Shown here: positions 31,181 through 54,393 of the stretch, in pieces
Layout: each line of letters starts with the position of its first letter
Numbering within the stretch: position 1 is the first letter of the stretch
Translations under genes and position numbers: made by a program
Source: Longimicrobiales bacterium
Lineage (GTDB): Bacteria; Gemmatimonadota; Gemmatimonadetes; Longimicrobiales; Gaopeijiaceae
Direction: 5' to 3'
DNA: 64,000 nucleotides
NCBI GenBank assembly: GCA_951813395.1
Contig: OX638356.1
Location: forward strand, 847,340-911,339
The notes under the pieces: model-generated
What the model was told of the DNA's origin: nothing
Database searches by the model: none
Seen by the model: only the letters and a program-made list of their open reading frames with translations

Positions 31181-31415
31181 CGGACGGGTGAGCTCCAATT
31201 CTTCTGATCGACTATGGGAAACCTCGCCGCACCGGCCCCTCGCCAGGTCGACGACACCTCAAGATGGAAAACAACCCCGTAAAATAAGCCCAACGGAGCC
31301 TGCGCGCCGAACGGTTGCGGTTGCCCGTTTGCGGGTCTACGGTACCGGATCCGCAGTTGCCGGGCGCGCCTGGAAGGGCGACTCCCACTTCTCGAACCAG
31401 CTTGCTGGAGGACTC

Positions 31416-32717
31416 ATGACCACGCTTCATTCGGCCACCGCGGCCAGCCAGTCGCGCCCCGTCCTGTTGGCGCTTGCCGCAGCGGGCCTCATCCTCTCGC
31501 CGGGAGTCCGTCCCGCGACAGCCCAGGAATCGGCCGATCCGGTGGCTGAACTGGTCGCCCGCCTCACGCTCGACGACTACAAGGCCACCCTGAAAGGCTT
31601 GACGCAGTTCGGGGACCGCAGACAGGGGACACAGCGCAACCGGGACGCGGTGGACTGGATCGAAACCACCCTGCAGGACTTCGGCTGCACCAGCACCGAG
31701 CGCGTCTTCTACATGTTCCCGCCCCCGGACGCCCGGCCGCGGCGTGCTCCGCCGCAACGTTCCGCCGGGCCCCCGCGTGCGCGCCCGCAGCAGCGGCAGG
31801 AGGAGGACCTGACCACCGCGACAGGGGGGCGGGTCGGTCGGCGCGGAGCCGGTTCCGGCGGCAGCGTGATCTTCGGCTACCGGGGCCGCACCGGCGTGAA
31901 TCGCGACCTCATGGCCCAGCCCGACGAGCGCATCCGTGAACTGAACCGCGAAGAGCCGGTGGACGGCGAGCGGTCTCAGGTCTACTGCACCAAGGTGGGC
32001 ACGACGCGTCCCGACGAGATGTACATCGTCGGCGCGCACATGGACGGACACGGCGTGAACGAGGCCGTGGACGACGACGGGTCCGGTACGGCTCTCGTCA
32101 TGGAACTCGCCCGCATCTTCAGCTCACCGGACGTGCAGACCGAACGCTCGATCCGCTTCGCACTGTGGAACAACGAGGAGACGGGGCTGAATGGCGCGCG
32201 CGCGTACGTGGCGCAGCGGCAGGAGCTCCAGGGCGTGGAGGATCCACCGGGTTCCGGGCACTACCCCGAGCCGCGATGGCTGGGGATGATTCAGCACGAC
32301 ATGATGCTGTGGGATCACGGAGCACCGGGTCCCGACGGACGGGTCAGCCGCGATCAGCGCCCCGAAGCCGACGTCAACATCGAGTTTCAGTCGAATTCCG
32401 ATATGGCGCGGGAGTCGATGGAACTGGCGTTCTTTTTCAAGGCCGCCAACGAGCGCTACGCCACCGACTACCCCGCGACGGTCGGCCCCCACATGACCAA
32501 CACCGACTCCACGCCCTTCATGAACCTCGTCGCGGCGATCAGCCTTCGGGAGAACGAACGCGGGGCGCATGTGGGCGCCGGGTGGAATCCCAACTGGCAT
32601 CAGCCCACCGACGTGTGGACGACCTACACGGACGACGACTTCCGGCTCGGGTTGAACGCCGCACAGACGACGCTGGCCGCGATTGCGCAACTGGCCGGTG
32701 CGGAGGTGGTGCCTTAG
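31416..32717 (+). CDS. Secreted M28-family zinc peptidase
   Basis: 433 residues from ATG 31416, preceded by GGAGGA at a good distance; the frame is open upstream but not protein-like. The signal peptide covers about residues 1-37 (ending TAQE). Zinc-site segments of the M28 co-catalytic fold are visible: YIVGAHMDGHG, AVDDDGSGTALVMELA, LWNNEETGLNGA, MIQHDMM and a late NWHQPTD. Between residues about 105 and 155 there is a Pro/Arg/Gly/Gln-rich low-complexity insert. The TAG stop lies exactly at the edge of a 245-bp repeat element. Confidence 0.9.
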   Translation: MTTLHSATAASQSRPVLLALAAAGLILSPGVRPATAQESADPVAELVARLTLDDYKATLKGLTQFGDRRQGTQRNRDAVDWIETTLQDFGCTSTERVFYMFPPPDARPRRAPPQRSAGPPRARPQQRQEEDLTTATGGRVGRRGAGSGGSVIFGYRGRTGVNRDLMAQPDERIRELNREEPVDGERSQVYCTKVGTTRPDEMYIVGAHMDGHGVNEAVDDDGSGTALVMELARIFSSPDVQTERSIRFALWNNEETGLNGARAYVAQRQELQGVEDPPGSGHYPEPRWLGMIQHDMMLWDHGAPGPDGRVSRDQRPEADVNIEFQSNSDMARESMELAFFFKAANERYATDYPATVGPHMTNTDSTPFMNLVAAISLRENERGAHVGAGWNPNWHQPTDVWTTYTDDDFRLGLNAAQTTLAAIAQLAGAEVVP

Positions 32718-32962
32718 CAGCCCGTGGACAAAATCCCCCCGGCATTCGACCGGCGATGCATCCGGGCCGGGCGCTCGGCTTCACCCCTTCACGCTGTAAA
32801 GCAAAGTTTACATGATGTCATGTTTACTATACATCGTGTCTTGTCGGGGCCGTGCTCTGCGTTGCTCCTCGGGCCCGTAGCGCTGCTACTGGCCTTTCGT
32901 CGCGCCTTGCCGGCCCGGCGCCTCGCCGCTCTCGGTGCTCGGGCGGATTCATCCACGGACTG
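32718..32962 (+). repeat. 245-bp MITE-like repeat element, copy 1
   Basis: This segment recurs in inverted orientation at 51727-51971, with the same length of 245 bp and roughly 80-85% identity by eye. The ends are imperfect 12-bp inverted repeats: CAGCCCGTGGAC on the left and the complement of CAGTCCGTGGAT on the right. TTAG flanks both ends (32714-32717 and 32963-32966), a possible 4-bp target duplication, and the left one holds the TAG stop of the M28 gene. The right flank repeats TTAGCAGCCC. An 80-codon frame starting GTG at 32724 is open in both copies. No transposase is inside. Confidence 0.8.
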
Positions 32963-32972
32963 TTAGCAGCCC

Positions 32973-33932
32973 TCAGGAGACGCCGCTAAACCGCGCGATC
33001 TCGGCCTCCGCCGCGATGTAGCCGAAGCCCGCCCAGCCGGAGCCCTCCAGAATACGGCGGAACATCTCTTCGGCCTGCTCGGATCGCCCGTTGTACAGGT
33101 GCCACGTGGCCACGCCGTACGCGATCGCCACGCCGGCGGGGTCGTCCTCCTCCGGGTTCCACAGCTCGTCGGCCCCGATCTCTCCCCTGTACATCAGGAG
33201 GAGGCGGTGGTAGCTCGTGTTCTCGATCACGTCCAGCTCCGCCGTGATCGGCTCCAGGACGGCGGCGGCTTCCTCGTCGCGGCCCAGTCGGCGCAGCGCC
33301 ATGTACCACCAGTGCGAGATCGCGACCAGCTGGTCGGGGTTCGTGGTCACGGCGAAGTAGGCCTCGTACGACGGCAACGCGGCCTCGAAGTCGCCCTTCA
33401 GGTAGTGGGCGAGCGCGAGGTGGTAGTGGATGTTCGACTGCAGGGTGCTCGTGGGGATGCCGCGCTCGTTCGGCTGACCGTCCGGCTCCACCTCGTCGGG
33501 ATGGCCCTCCACGAGCGTGGCCGCATGAGACAGGTCCTCGATGGCGCGGTCGAATTCCCGGACACTGATCCAGCGGTGCCCGCGGTGGCGGTACATGCGC
33601 GCATCGCCGGGGTGCTTGCGGATGCCCTCCGCGAATACTTCGATCGCGTCCCGGTATTGGCTCGTGTAGCCGATGCGCCGGCCCAGCCAGATGATCGCGT
33701 CCGCGTCGTCGGGGTCGGACTCGTAATCGGCCCGGGCGGCATCCACGTCCGCTGCCTGGCGGGCCGCCACCTCGGGCGACGGCAGCATGGGATAGAGCGG
33801 ATCGCCCAGCAGCGAGATGGCCTCGGCTCCCTCGGGCAGCGCCACGTCGGCCGAACCGCTGTCGGCCGCGCCGCATGCGGCGGACAGTGAAACGAGGGGC
33901 AACAGAGCAGCGGTGAGAAGCGTGCGGTGCAT
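32973..33932 (-). CDS. TPR-repeat lipoprotein
   Basis: 319 residues from ATG 33932 with a lipobox at Cys20 (LVSLSAAC). The body consists of helical tetratricopeptide-type repeats: DADAIIWLGRRIGYTSQYRDAIEVFAEGIRKHPGD, YRHRGHRWISVREFDRAIEDLSHAATL, YHLALAHYLKGDFEAALPSYEAYF, and a final one before WAGFGYIAAEAEIARF. Such lipoproteins are protein-binding adaptors; nothing points to a specific partner. It is divergent from the cytochrome/PHM-like gene at 34091, and its 3' end borders the repeat element. Confidence 0.83.
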   Translation of the reverse strand: MHRTLLTAALLPLVSLSAACGAADSGSADVALPEGAEAISLLGDPLYPMLPSPEVAARQAADVDAARADYESDPDDADAIIWLGRRIGYTSQYRDAIEVFAEGIRKHPGDARMYRHRGHRWISVREFDRAIEDLSHAATLVEGHPDEVEPDGQPNERGIPTSTLQSNIHYHLALAHYLKGDFEAALPSYEAYFAVTTNPDQLVAISHWWYMALRRLGRDEEAAAVLEPITAELDVIENTSYHRLLLMYRGEIGADELWNPEEDDPAGVAIAYGVATWHLYNGRSEQAEEMFRRILEGSGWAGFGYIAAEAEIARFSGVS

Positions 33933-34018
33933 GCGGGCGTCCCGGTTGATGAGGGCTGGGAGTGTTTTCGGGGACAAGGTTGTCGTCCGGGTCGGCCGGG
34001 GCAACGGGACGGCTGCTT

Positions 34019-51044: not shown

Positions 51045-51703
51045 CGCCCCAGGCCTCCGGTCGCCCCCGCGCCTTTCGCCGCTCGCCGTGCTCGTTTGAC
51101 TCGAAGCCGGCCGAGACGGAGCTGCGCGGCGGATGGACCGTCGTGCTGCGCTATGAGGGTGAGGACGGCCACCCGGGTCCCCGGCTTGTCGACCTCAGCC
51201 ACCGGCGGCGCTGGGACTTCCAGGACAGCGGGGTGGCCGCCCTGCGGCCGATGGGGCTGGCCGTTCCGGAACGATTCGGCGAGGTGGGTGCGCACGGCCC
51301 GCTGGTCATCAACCGCATGAACCGCACGCAGGTCGCGATCTGGCACCTGGGCACGGGTCCGCTGCCGGACACGCCCGAGGAGACCGGCTTCACGGAGACC
51401 ACCGATGGGCACTGCTTGCTGGCCTTCGTCGGCGACGGGGTCCCGGAAGTCCTCGAACACCTGACGGCCCTGGACCTCTTCGACCCTGCCCGCGCAGCCC
51501 CCTTCCTGACCCAGGGACCGGTGCTTCACGTGCCGTGCCAGGTGGTGACCTTCGCGCCCGACCTGGTCGTGATGACCCTCGCCCGCGGCTACGGCAAGAC
51601 GTTTGCGGAGGCGGTCCTGGCGTCCGGCGCGATCGCCGGGCTGCGGCCCGGCGGGGAGCGGGTGTTCCAGCGTGCGTTTGCCGAGGGGAAGCGTTTCAGC
51701 TGA
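51041..51703 (+). CDS. soxG: Sarcosine oxidase gamma subunit
   Basis: 220 residues from ATG 51041, overlapping the soxA stop (ATGA). It matches SoxG in the GcvT-related fold: LVDLSHRRRWDFQDSGVAAL, LAFVGDGVPEVLEHLTALDL, VPCQVVTFAPDLVVMTLARGYGKTFAEAVL. The N-terminus (SGRPRAFRRSPCSFDSKP) is somewhat divergent. It completes the four-subunit complex. The second 245-bp repeat begins 24 bp after the stop. Confidence 0.88.
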   Translation: MTPQASGRPRAFRRSPCSFDSKPAETELRGGWTVVLRYEGEDGHPGPRLVDLSHRRRWDFQDSGVAALRPMGLAVPERFGEVGAHGPLVINRMNRTQVAIWHLGTGPLPDTPEETGFTETTDGHCLLAFVGDGVPEVLEHLTALDLFDPARAAPFLTQGPVLHVPCQVVTFAPDLVVMTLARGYGKTFAEAVLASGAIAGLRPGGERVFQRAFAEGKRFS

Positions 51704-51726
51704 AACGTCGCGCGGCGCCGGCCTGG

Positions 51727-51971
51727 CAGTCCGTGGATAAAGCCGCCTGAGCACCGAGAGCGGCGAGGCGCCGGGCCGGCAAGGCGCGACGAAGGGCCAG
51801 TAGCAGCGCTACGGGCCCGAGGAGCAACGCAGAGCACGGCCTCGGCATGGACGAATGTATAGTAAACATGACATTATGGAAACTTTGCATTACAGCGTGT
51901 AGAGGTGTGGCCGTGCGGCCGGCCCGGATGCATCGCCGCTCGAATGCCAGGGGGATTTTGTCCATGGACTG
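51727..51971 (-). repeat. 245-bp MITE-like repeat element, copy 2
   Basis: Inverted copy of the segment at 32718-32962, identical in length. The terminal inverted repeats are CAGTCCGTGGAT on the plus-strand left side and GTCCATGGACTG on the right. In element orientation it follows TTAG, which supplies the TAG stop (51974-51972) of the S9 peptidase gene, just as copy 1 follows the TAG of the M28 gene. The other flank reads CCAG in that orientation, so a target duplication is imperfect. The same 80-codon frame stays open (start ATG at 51965), with several conservative differences (D/E, S/T). Confidence 0.8.
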
Positions 51972-54290
51972 CTAAGGAATCACCCCCCTCTCCCGTCCCG
52001 TCAGCCCAAGCAGGTGTTCCTGGAAGTACCGGCGTCTCGCGGCGTCCGTGAACTCGGCGCTCTGGCCGGTGAACCAGTGCGGCTGCTCGGGCACGACGAT
52101 CAGGTCGTGCGGCTTGCCGGCCCGGATGAGCGCCTCGACGAGTTTCATCGTGGCCGAGAAGGTGGCGTTCACGTCGCTGGTGCCGTGGATCAGCAGCAGC
52201 TTCGCCTCGAGCTGGTCGGCCAGGCGCAGGCTCGATCCGTACTCGTAGCCTTCCGCGTTCTCCCAGGGGCGGTTCATGTACGGCTCGATCGCCCACGCGT
52301 TCTGGTCGTGGATGTCGTAGACGCCGTTCACGGCCACGCCGACGTCGTAGAAGTCGGGTTCGAGGACGAGCGCGCGCACGGTCATGTAGCCGCCCCACGA
52401 GCCCCCGTGGATGCCGACGCGGTCCAGGTCCATCCAGGGCCGCGTGGCCGCGGCGTTCTCCATCGCCGCACGGTGGTCGGGGATCTCGTTGCGGCCGAAG
52501 TTGCGGTACGCCACGTCCTGGAAGGCCTTGCCGCGCTCGGTGGTGCCGCGCCCGTCAACCATGAACACCACGAACCCCAGTTGCGCGAGGGCGGCCTGGC
52601 TGAGCCCGCGGCCGTCGGTGAACGTCTTCGGGACCCAGCTGATGAAGGGGCCGTTGTAGATGTAGTCGATGACCGGGTACTTCCTGGCCGGGTCGAAGTC
52701 GTGCGGCTTGTAGATCAGCCCATAGAGGTCGGTCTCTCCGTCGGCGGCCTTCACGACGAACTCCTCGGGCGGTATCCAGCCGAGTTCGTCCAGCGCGCTC
52801 ACGTCGGCTTCGGTCACGACGTGTACGAACTCGCCCGACGACGTGCGCACCTCGGTGCGGGGTGGGCGGCTCGTGCTCGAATGCGTGTCGACGATGTACG
52901 CGCCGTTGGGCGACACCGTGGCGCTGTGCTGACCCTCTCCGTCGGTGACGCGCACCACGTCGCCGCCGTCCAGCGAGACACGGTAGAGGTGTGTGTCGTA
53001 CGGCCTCTCCTCCTCCATGTGCCCGGTGAAATACACCTGCCCGGCGGCCTCGTCGACGTGAACGATGCCGAGAACCGGCCACGCTCCCGCGGTGAGTCTG
53101 CGGATGAGCCGGCCGTCCATGCCGTACAGGTAGATGTGGTCCCAGCCGTCGCGCTCGCTGATCCAGAGAAACCGCTCTCCGTCGGTGAGCGGGCGGGCCA
53201 GCGCGCGCCAGGACGGCGTCGTTCCGATCCCCTTGATGAAGGTGGGCTGCGTCTCTTCCAGCACGACCCGGGTTTCGCCGGTGGCCGGGTCGGCGGCGAC
53301 CAGGTGCAGCGTCCGGTACGTCCTGAGCATCCTGAGGAAGAGGTATTCCGACCCGTCCGGAAGCCACCCGACCGGGCTGAGGAGCTGGTCGTCCTCGCCG
53401 ACGTCGAGCTCGACCGCGCGGCGCCCGACGACGTCCACGACGTGCACCTCCTGGCGGGGCAGGGGATTGCCGGCCTTCGCGTACGGCGCGTATTCGACTT
53501 CCTCGGTCTGCTTCAGCCAGTGCAGGATCGGAACGCGCTCCATGTGGCGGCTGTCCACCTTCATGGCCGCGACGCGGCCGCCGTCCGGGGCCCACATCGC
53601 GCCCTCGACGCTCCAGGCGTAGTCCTCCTCGCCGTTCTCCATGACCGGATGCTCGCGGCCGTCGAACGTCGCCCGCACCCAGAGGCCGTTGTCCTTCTCG
53701 GTAAGCAGCCAGCGGCCGTCCGGCGAGGGCACCTCCATGACCGCGGGCGCCCCGCTGGTGAAGCCCTCTCGCACGACTCGCGGGGCCGCGCGCCGGGCGG
53801 CTTCGGTTTCGGCGGACGGGTGGGGGGTGACCGAGTAGCTGTCGAGATCCAGTTCGAAGCCGCGATCCTCGACCGTGAAGCGCACCGTGCGCTCGCTCTC
53901 GCCCTCGCCGGAGAACGTGAAGCGGTCGAAGGGGAGGCCGCGGTACGGCGGCTCGTGGCCCAGCACGGGGGTAAGCGCCTCGCGCAGCCGTTCGGTGTCG
54001 AAGAGGGGCTCGGTGGTGCCGGTGGCCGGATCCGCGCGCTGGATCACGGTCTGGTCGGGCTGACCCTCGGCGAACCAGAAGCTCTGACCGTCGGCCATCC
54101 AGTTGACCGCACACGCGGCCGAGCCCAGGGGTCCGGCGTCCGGGCAGATCACGCCGCCCTTGATCAGGCTCGGGATCGACATGTAGCGGGCGTACAGCTC
54201 GTCCCGCTCCGGGTCGAGCGACTCCTGGGCGTTCGCGGCGGCGGGGACCAGCAGGCCGGCCACGGCGAGCGAAACGGCGAAGACACGCAT
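51972..54290 (-). CDS. Secreted S9-family dipeptidyl peptidase (DPP IV-like)
   Basis: 772 residues from ATG 54290 with a signal peptide (MRVFAVSLAVAGLLVPAAANA). An N-terminal eight-blade propeller of the DPP IV type is followed by an alpha/beta-hydrolase domain. Catalytic residues are Ser631 in GGSWGGY, Asp706 in IHGTSDVN, and His738 in EQPHWF. Such enzymes remove X-Pro or X-Ala dipeptides from peptide N-termini in the periplasm or outside. Divergent from a second DPP gene with 103 bp between starts. The TAG stop coincides with the border of the repeat element. Confidence 0.93.
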   Translation of the reverse strand: MRVFAVSLAVAGLLVPAAANAQESLDPERDELYARYMSIPSLIKGGVICPDAGPLGSAACAVNWMADGQSFWFAEGQPDQTVIQRADPATGTTEPLFDTERLREALTPVLGHEPPYRGLPFDRFTFSGEGESERTVRFTVEDRGFELDLDSYSVTPHPSAETEAARRAAPRVVREGFTSGAPAVMEVPSPDGRWLLTEKDNGLWVRATFDGREHPVMENGEEDYAWSVEGAMWAPDGGRVAAMKVDSRHMERVPILHWLKQTEEVEYAPYAKAGNPLPRQEVHVVDVVGRRAVELDVGEDDQLLSPVGWLPDGSEYLFLRMLRTYRTLHLVAADPATGETRVVLEETQPTFIKGIGTTPSWRALARPLTDGERFLWISERDGWDHIYLYGMDGRLIRRLTAGAWPVLGIVHVDEAAGQVYFTGHMEEERPYDTHLYRVSLDGGDVVRVTDGEGQHSATVSPNGAYIVDTHSSTSRPPRTEVRTSSGEFVHVVTEADVSALDELGWIPPEEFVVKAADGETDLYGLIYKPHDFDPARKYPVIDYIYNGPFISWVPKTFTDGRGLSQAALAQLGFVVFMVDGRGTTERGKAFQDVAYRNFGRNEIPDHRAAMENAAATRPWMDLDRVGIHGGSWGGYMTVRALVLEPDFYDVGVAVNGVYDIHDQNAWAIEPYMNRPWENAEGYEYGSSLRLADQLEAKLLLIHGTSDVNATFSATMKLVEALIRAGKPHDLIVVPEQPHWFTGQSAEFTDAARRRYFQEHLLGLTGRERGVIP

Positions 54291-54393
54291 GATCGCGGGC
54301 TCCTCTGGGCAGCAGGGCGGAACGGGTCTGGCTTGAGACCACGTGCGCGGCCAGTATACGGACAACGCAACCCGCATTCCAGACGAGGTCACC

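Follow-up and report, generated by a model that had tools for sequence, protein, structure and literature searches.

Why should two copies of one repeat each begin at the very base that follows the stop codon of a peptidase gene? An earlier note on the window, by which we mean the whole 64,000-nucleotide stretch of DNA analysed here, had reported that both copies start directly after the TAG of such a gene (M28 and S9) and that they have the same orientation relative to it, and the coordinates confirm both statements. The M28 gene ends CCT-TAG; its stop codon TAG occupies 32715-32717, and 32718 is the first base of the element (CAGCCCGTGGAC...). The S9 gene also ends CCT-TAG; here the stop codon occupies 51974-51972, and on the minus strand the element (CAGTCCATGGAC...) begins at 51971. 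In both cases it is the L end of the element that faces the gene. The two genes with those stops were recovered by a home-made codon-usage gene finder trained on the window, which gives approximate starts, and a Pfam search confirmed both peptidase families. Each copy lies between convergent genes, with the end of the opposite gene 10 bp (copy 1) or 23 bp (copy 2) from the R end of the element. The 261-bp repeat given by a repeat tool comprises an element of 245 bp plus flanking bases common to both copies. The features of the two loci are as follows.

31359..32717, plus strand: M28 peptidase gene (start approximate; gene finder, Pfam)
32714..32717, plus strand: left flank of copy 1, TTAG, which includes the M28 stop TAG (32715-32717)
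32718..32962, plus strand: MITE copy 1, L to R, 245 bp
32718..32735, plus strand: L terminal inverted repeat of copy 1, CAGCCCGTGGACAAAATC
32945..32962, minus strand: R terminal inverted repeat of copy 1, CAGTCCGTGGATGAATCC
32963..32966, plus strand: right flank of copy 1, TTAG, which repeats the left flank (4-bp target duplication)
32973..33956, minus strand: convergent gene near the R end of copy 1 (start approximate; gene finder)
51095..51703, plus strand: convergent gene near the R end of copy 2 (start approximate; gene finder)
51723..51726, minus strand: right flank of copy 2, CCAG, a mismatch to TTAG; duplication decayed or doubtful
51727..51971, minus strand: MITE copy 2, L to R, 245 bp
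51727..51744, plus strand: R terminal inverted repeat of copy 2, CAGTCCGTGGATAAAGCC
51954..51971, minus strand: L terminal inverted repeat of copy 2, CAGTCCATGGACAAAATC
51972..51975, minus strand: left flank of copy 2, TTAG, which includes the S9 stop TAG (51974-51972)
51972..54305, minus strand: S9 (DPP IV type) peptidase gene (start approximate; gene finder, Pfam)

We consider, at a probability of about 0.88 for the explanation as a whole, that the element is a MITE moved by an IS1182-like transposase at a CTAG-type site, and that its position at stop codons follows from that target. This reading builds on what we observe of the element and its ends, of the ends and CTAG flanks of a partner insertion sequence (IS), of a 4-bp duplication, of the distribution of the target and of the absence of the element from orthologous loci.

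The MITE has 18-bp imperfect terminal inverted repeats and no transposase gene, and its ends read CAG[TC]CC[GA]TGGACAAAATC and CAGTCCGTGGATRAA[TG]CC. Its own genome, a single contig of 4.09 Mb, contains 37 BLAST pieces of the element besides many solitary or deleted ends, and it was found in 23 of the 23 genomes of the genus searched, with a patchy occurrence beyond the genus; a recurring 170-bp form is an internal deletion. The genomes surveyed are mostly MAGs, the copies were picked by similarity to two queries, and the sequence analysed consists of the stretches around them. Like other bacterial MITEs (PMC10969869), the element is short, has no evident gene, shares its inverted ends with a full IS, carries a 4-bp duplication and occurs in tens of mostly intergenic copies. 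It differs from them in its genus-wide conservation of a covarying hairpin and of the exact length of 245 bp, and in the many copies that adjoin stop codons. It is an ordinary kind of mobile DNA with a neat reason for its position. Shorter derivatives of 52-102 bp that retain both ends were seen at L028 (G000:C1:1796152-1796203), L027 (3747097-3747155) and L024 (1168517-1168618). Elsewhere, at L204 (G021:C1:205450-209592), three full-length copies lie in tandem at 207150-207892, spaced exactly 4 bp, as if new copies had entered the duplicated target of the first or unequal exchange had occurred.

A candidate partner is present in the same genome as three near-identical IS copies of about 1.5 kb, which start CAGGCCGTGGATAAAATCC and end TTCTTCCACGGCCTG and are flanked by CTAG/CTAG, CTAG/CTAG and CTAA/CTAG. 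The L ends of IS and MITE have 20 of 24 bases in common. The 448-aa transposase of the IS shares with the IS1182 family (IS1272, ISPsy36) its DUF772 and DDE_Tnp_1 domains, its best NCBIfam match (IS1182, NF033551, E 4.8e-55) and short terminal inverted repeats, but it scores below the curated NF033551 cut-off (187 vs 270 bits), and we therefore call the IS “IS1182-like”. Relatives in other Gemmatimonadota MAGs, including Candidatus Palauibacter poriticola, have ends reading CAGTCC, CAGCCC or CAGGCC, and CTAG directly precedes 12 of 12 clearly located ends (one being the R end of a truncated copy, with two further ends giving no clear match). Over all IS copies together, 17 of 18 clear ends are flanked by CTAG and one by CTAA. 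Palindromic targets have been reported for IS1182-family members (PMC5678879), among which ISPsy36 has the 4-bp target GGCC (PMC8027508). MITE and IS thus have both ends and target in common, from which we infer that the IS1182-like transposase most likely moves the MITE in trans. A second transposase group of about seven copies (L070-L083, for example G000:C1:927398-928519) has a 456-aa frame that matches part of the IS1182-like protein at 35% identity. The IS1182-like IS itself, again flanked by CTAG, is also found at L385 (JAPPHB010000004.1), in a MAG labelled Gammaproteobacteria, which suggests either that it passed between members of the community or that the sequence was binned wrongly.

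The flanks of the MITE have the consensus YTAG at both ends, and the agreement of left with right flanks over that of shuffled pairs peaks at k=4 (z about 4). The more intact the terminal repeats, the better this agreement tends to be (about 1.8 rising to 2.8 of 4), a trend that decaying duplications should show. A copy in genome G013 is flanked by CTAT/CTAT, and in two relatives (96% identity) the same gene end is without the element and shows CTAT once, which makes this a clean 4-bp target duplication by simple insertion with no deletion. A second empty-site comparison was not clean, and at a further empty site (L259) the sequence was too far diverged to read. The target-site duplication is 4 bp and has decayed in most copies, four identical flanking bases being found in only 15 of 112; in the window, copy 1 has TTAG/TTAG and copy 2 TTAG/CCAG. 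The alternative of a TA duplication, which would extend the element by one base on either side, was rejected on its weaker signal (z 3.0 vs 3.9). Where an L end adjoins a stop, GTAG and TTAG match CTAG in frequency, so that either later drift of the wobble base or a looser target is needed.

The statistics of such a target explain why it is so often a stop codon. CTAG was counted 78 times (0.17 per kb) in 468 kb of sequence free of the element, at 68.2% GC; by our own arithmetic, base composition would predict roughly 3 per kb. These 78 sites comprise 21 in-register stop codons, 26 intergenic sites and 31 coding sites, stops making up 27% of all CTAG sites and 45% once coding sites are set aside; the corresponding shares for YTAR are 16% and 27%, and in the window six of 20 YTAR sites are stops. 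Genus-wide, a stop codon lies exactly at an end of 43 of 123 non-redundant copies (35%). The distribution of the target tetranucleotide therefore accounts for the stop association: copies often lie directly after genes because CTAG is rare in a GC-rich genome and many of the usable sites are TAG stops, and the reading frame and its stop are kept after insertion because the four target bases are duplicated. The first alternative of the earlier note, a (C)TTAG-type target found at stop codons, is thereby borne out as a YTAR/CTAG-type site. Its description of two insertions out of two as striking holds against random position, where the outcome is far beyond chance, but not against the target distribution, since at the 35% rate two of two has a probability near 0.12, falling to about 0.06 when both copies must present the L end. 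The note had named a scatter of other copies without relation to stop codons as what would count against it; on this point the outcome is mixed, as 35% of the 123 touch one and 65% do not, which is what the target predicts.

It is very unlikely that stop codons are themselves targeted, through a coupling to translation or transcription termination that goes beyond a tetranucleotide preference. The 35% of copies touching a stop would fit such a coupling, as would the roughly twofold excess of L over R ends there (30 vs 14), but that percentage lies between the predictions from non-coding YTAR (27%) and CTAG (45%) sites, most copies lie away from stops, and TGA, the commonest stop here, is found at only two of the 30 stop-adjacent L ends.

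IS1272, whose transposase family is the same, replaces inverted repeats or hairpins without duplication (PMC5678879), and CTAG is itself a palindrome, which raises the idea of a structure-dependent insertion that replaces a stem-loop. We regard this as very improbable for the MITE, in which, in contrast to IS1272, a CTAG target is combined with simple duplication: at the clean empty site a simple insertion duplicated 4 bp and deleted nothing, and no excess of inverted repeats was found between left and right MITE flanks.

The CTAG-type target leaves a further property of the element to be considered, its fold. The strand read from R to L is the more stably folded in 108 of 109 copies, and the alignment folds at -62 kcal/mol on that strand vs -31 on the other. 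In the R-to-L alignment 98% of cells are paired and 15 pairs are changed on both sides, with 56 both-side-changed cells vs 12.6 in shuffles, a count in which the copies are related and the events not independent. In the alignment of copy 1 (32718-32962) with its relatives, the R-to-L strand forms a covarying hairpin with G-U pairs, which become A-C mismatches on the other strand; an alignment of mixed orientation was discarded. An Rfam search gave no match to the element, and a known RNA family was ruled out. Over all genomes 62 copies are oriented with transcription vs 29 against it (p 7e-4), but a general orientation rule was rejected, as genome G021 (L167-L206) drives the bias with 19:2 non-redundant copies and the remainder stands at 43:27 (about p 0.07, an estimate). 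We think it rather unlikely that the R-to-L strand is maintained as folded RNA or single-stranded DNA, its hairpin being recognised in transposition or acting as RNA and perhaps underlying the tendency to follow the direction of transcription. If true, the element would be more than a passive MITE. The strand-specific conserved fold is a testable point.

The second alternative of the earlier note, that the element has been domesticated as a regulator or terminator in the 3′-UTR of genes for exported peptidases, is not supported by our results, and we consider it highly improbable. Both window copies do follow peptidase genes, both lie between convergent genes and the element folds strongly on both strands, but the 3′ end of the M28 gene lacks the element in 15 orthologues and that of the S9 gene in nine, and these element-free orthologues already end in TAG (one in TAA). 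The genes that precede stop-adjacent copies elsewhere in the genome encode ClpX, HolA (DNA polymerase III delta), MetK, AdoHcy hydrolase, an ABC transporter, a histidine kinase, a beta-lactamase-like protein and an M20 peptidase; they are unrelated, and an association with peptidases was ruled out. With both insertions absent in relatives and the host genes diverse, the repeat is therefore not a conserved 3′-UTR element. Scanning with a simple consensus found no intrinsic terminator (stem plus U-run) and no promoter-like site, and the commoner orientation places the less stable strand in the upstream mRNA.

GTAG REPs are thought to depend on Y1 transposases. A REPIN of this class, moved by a tyrosine transposase of the Y1 type (RAYT), would resemble the element in its palindromic ends beside a TAG, its hairpin-forming pairs, the G-T pairs in its stems and its downstream location between co-directional or convergent genes, and ORFs next to GTAG REPs often take their TAG stop codon from the repeat termini (PMC3733652). 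We nevertheless dismiss this origin as extremely improbable, since Y1_Tnp was found in none of the 23 genomes of the genus in a search that detected its positive controls, the ends match those of a DDE IS flanked by CTAG, and a 4-bp target duplication is present.

Returning to transposition by the IS1182-like system, we propose that its DDE transposase, present in this genome and in the genus, would move the 245-bp non-autonomous MITE in trans into a 4-bp CTAG-type (YTAR) site, gap repair then doubling those bases. With CTAG strongly depleted at 68% GC, many of the surviving non-coding sites consist of the last base of a sense codon followed by TAG, and insertion there would place the four bases on both sides and leave the stop codon intact. 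Such insertions would survive, and those inside genes would presumably be purged. This offers a simple quantitative reason for the position of some bacterial repeats exactly at stop codons: GC-rich coding sequence has few CTAG-type targets, and the stop survives insertion because the target is duplicated. It also documents an IS1182-like/MITE pair in the Gemmatimonadota, and warns that stop-codon positions of this kind should not be taken as a sign of regulation.
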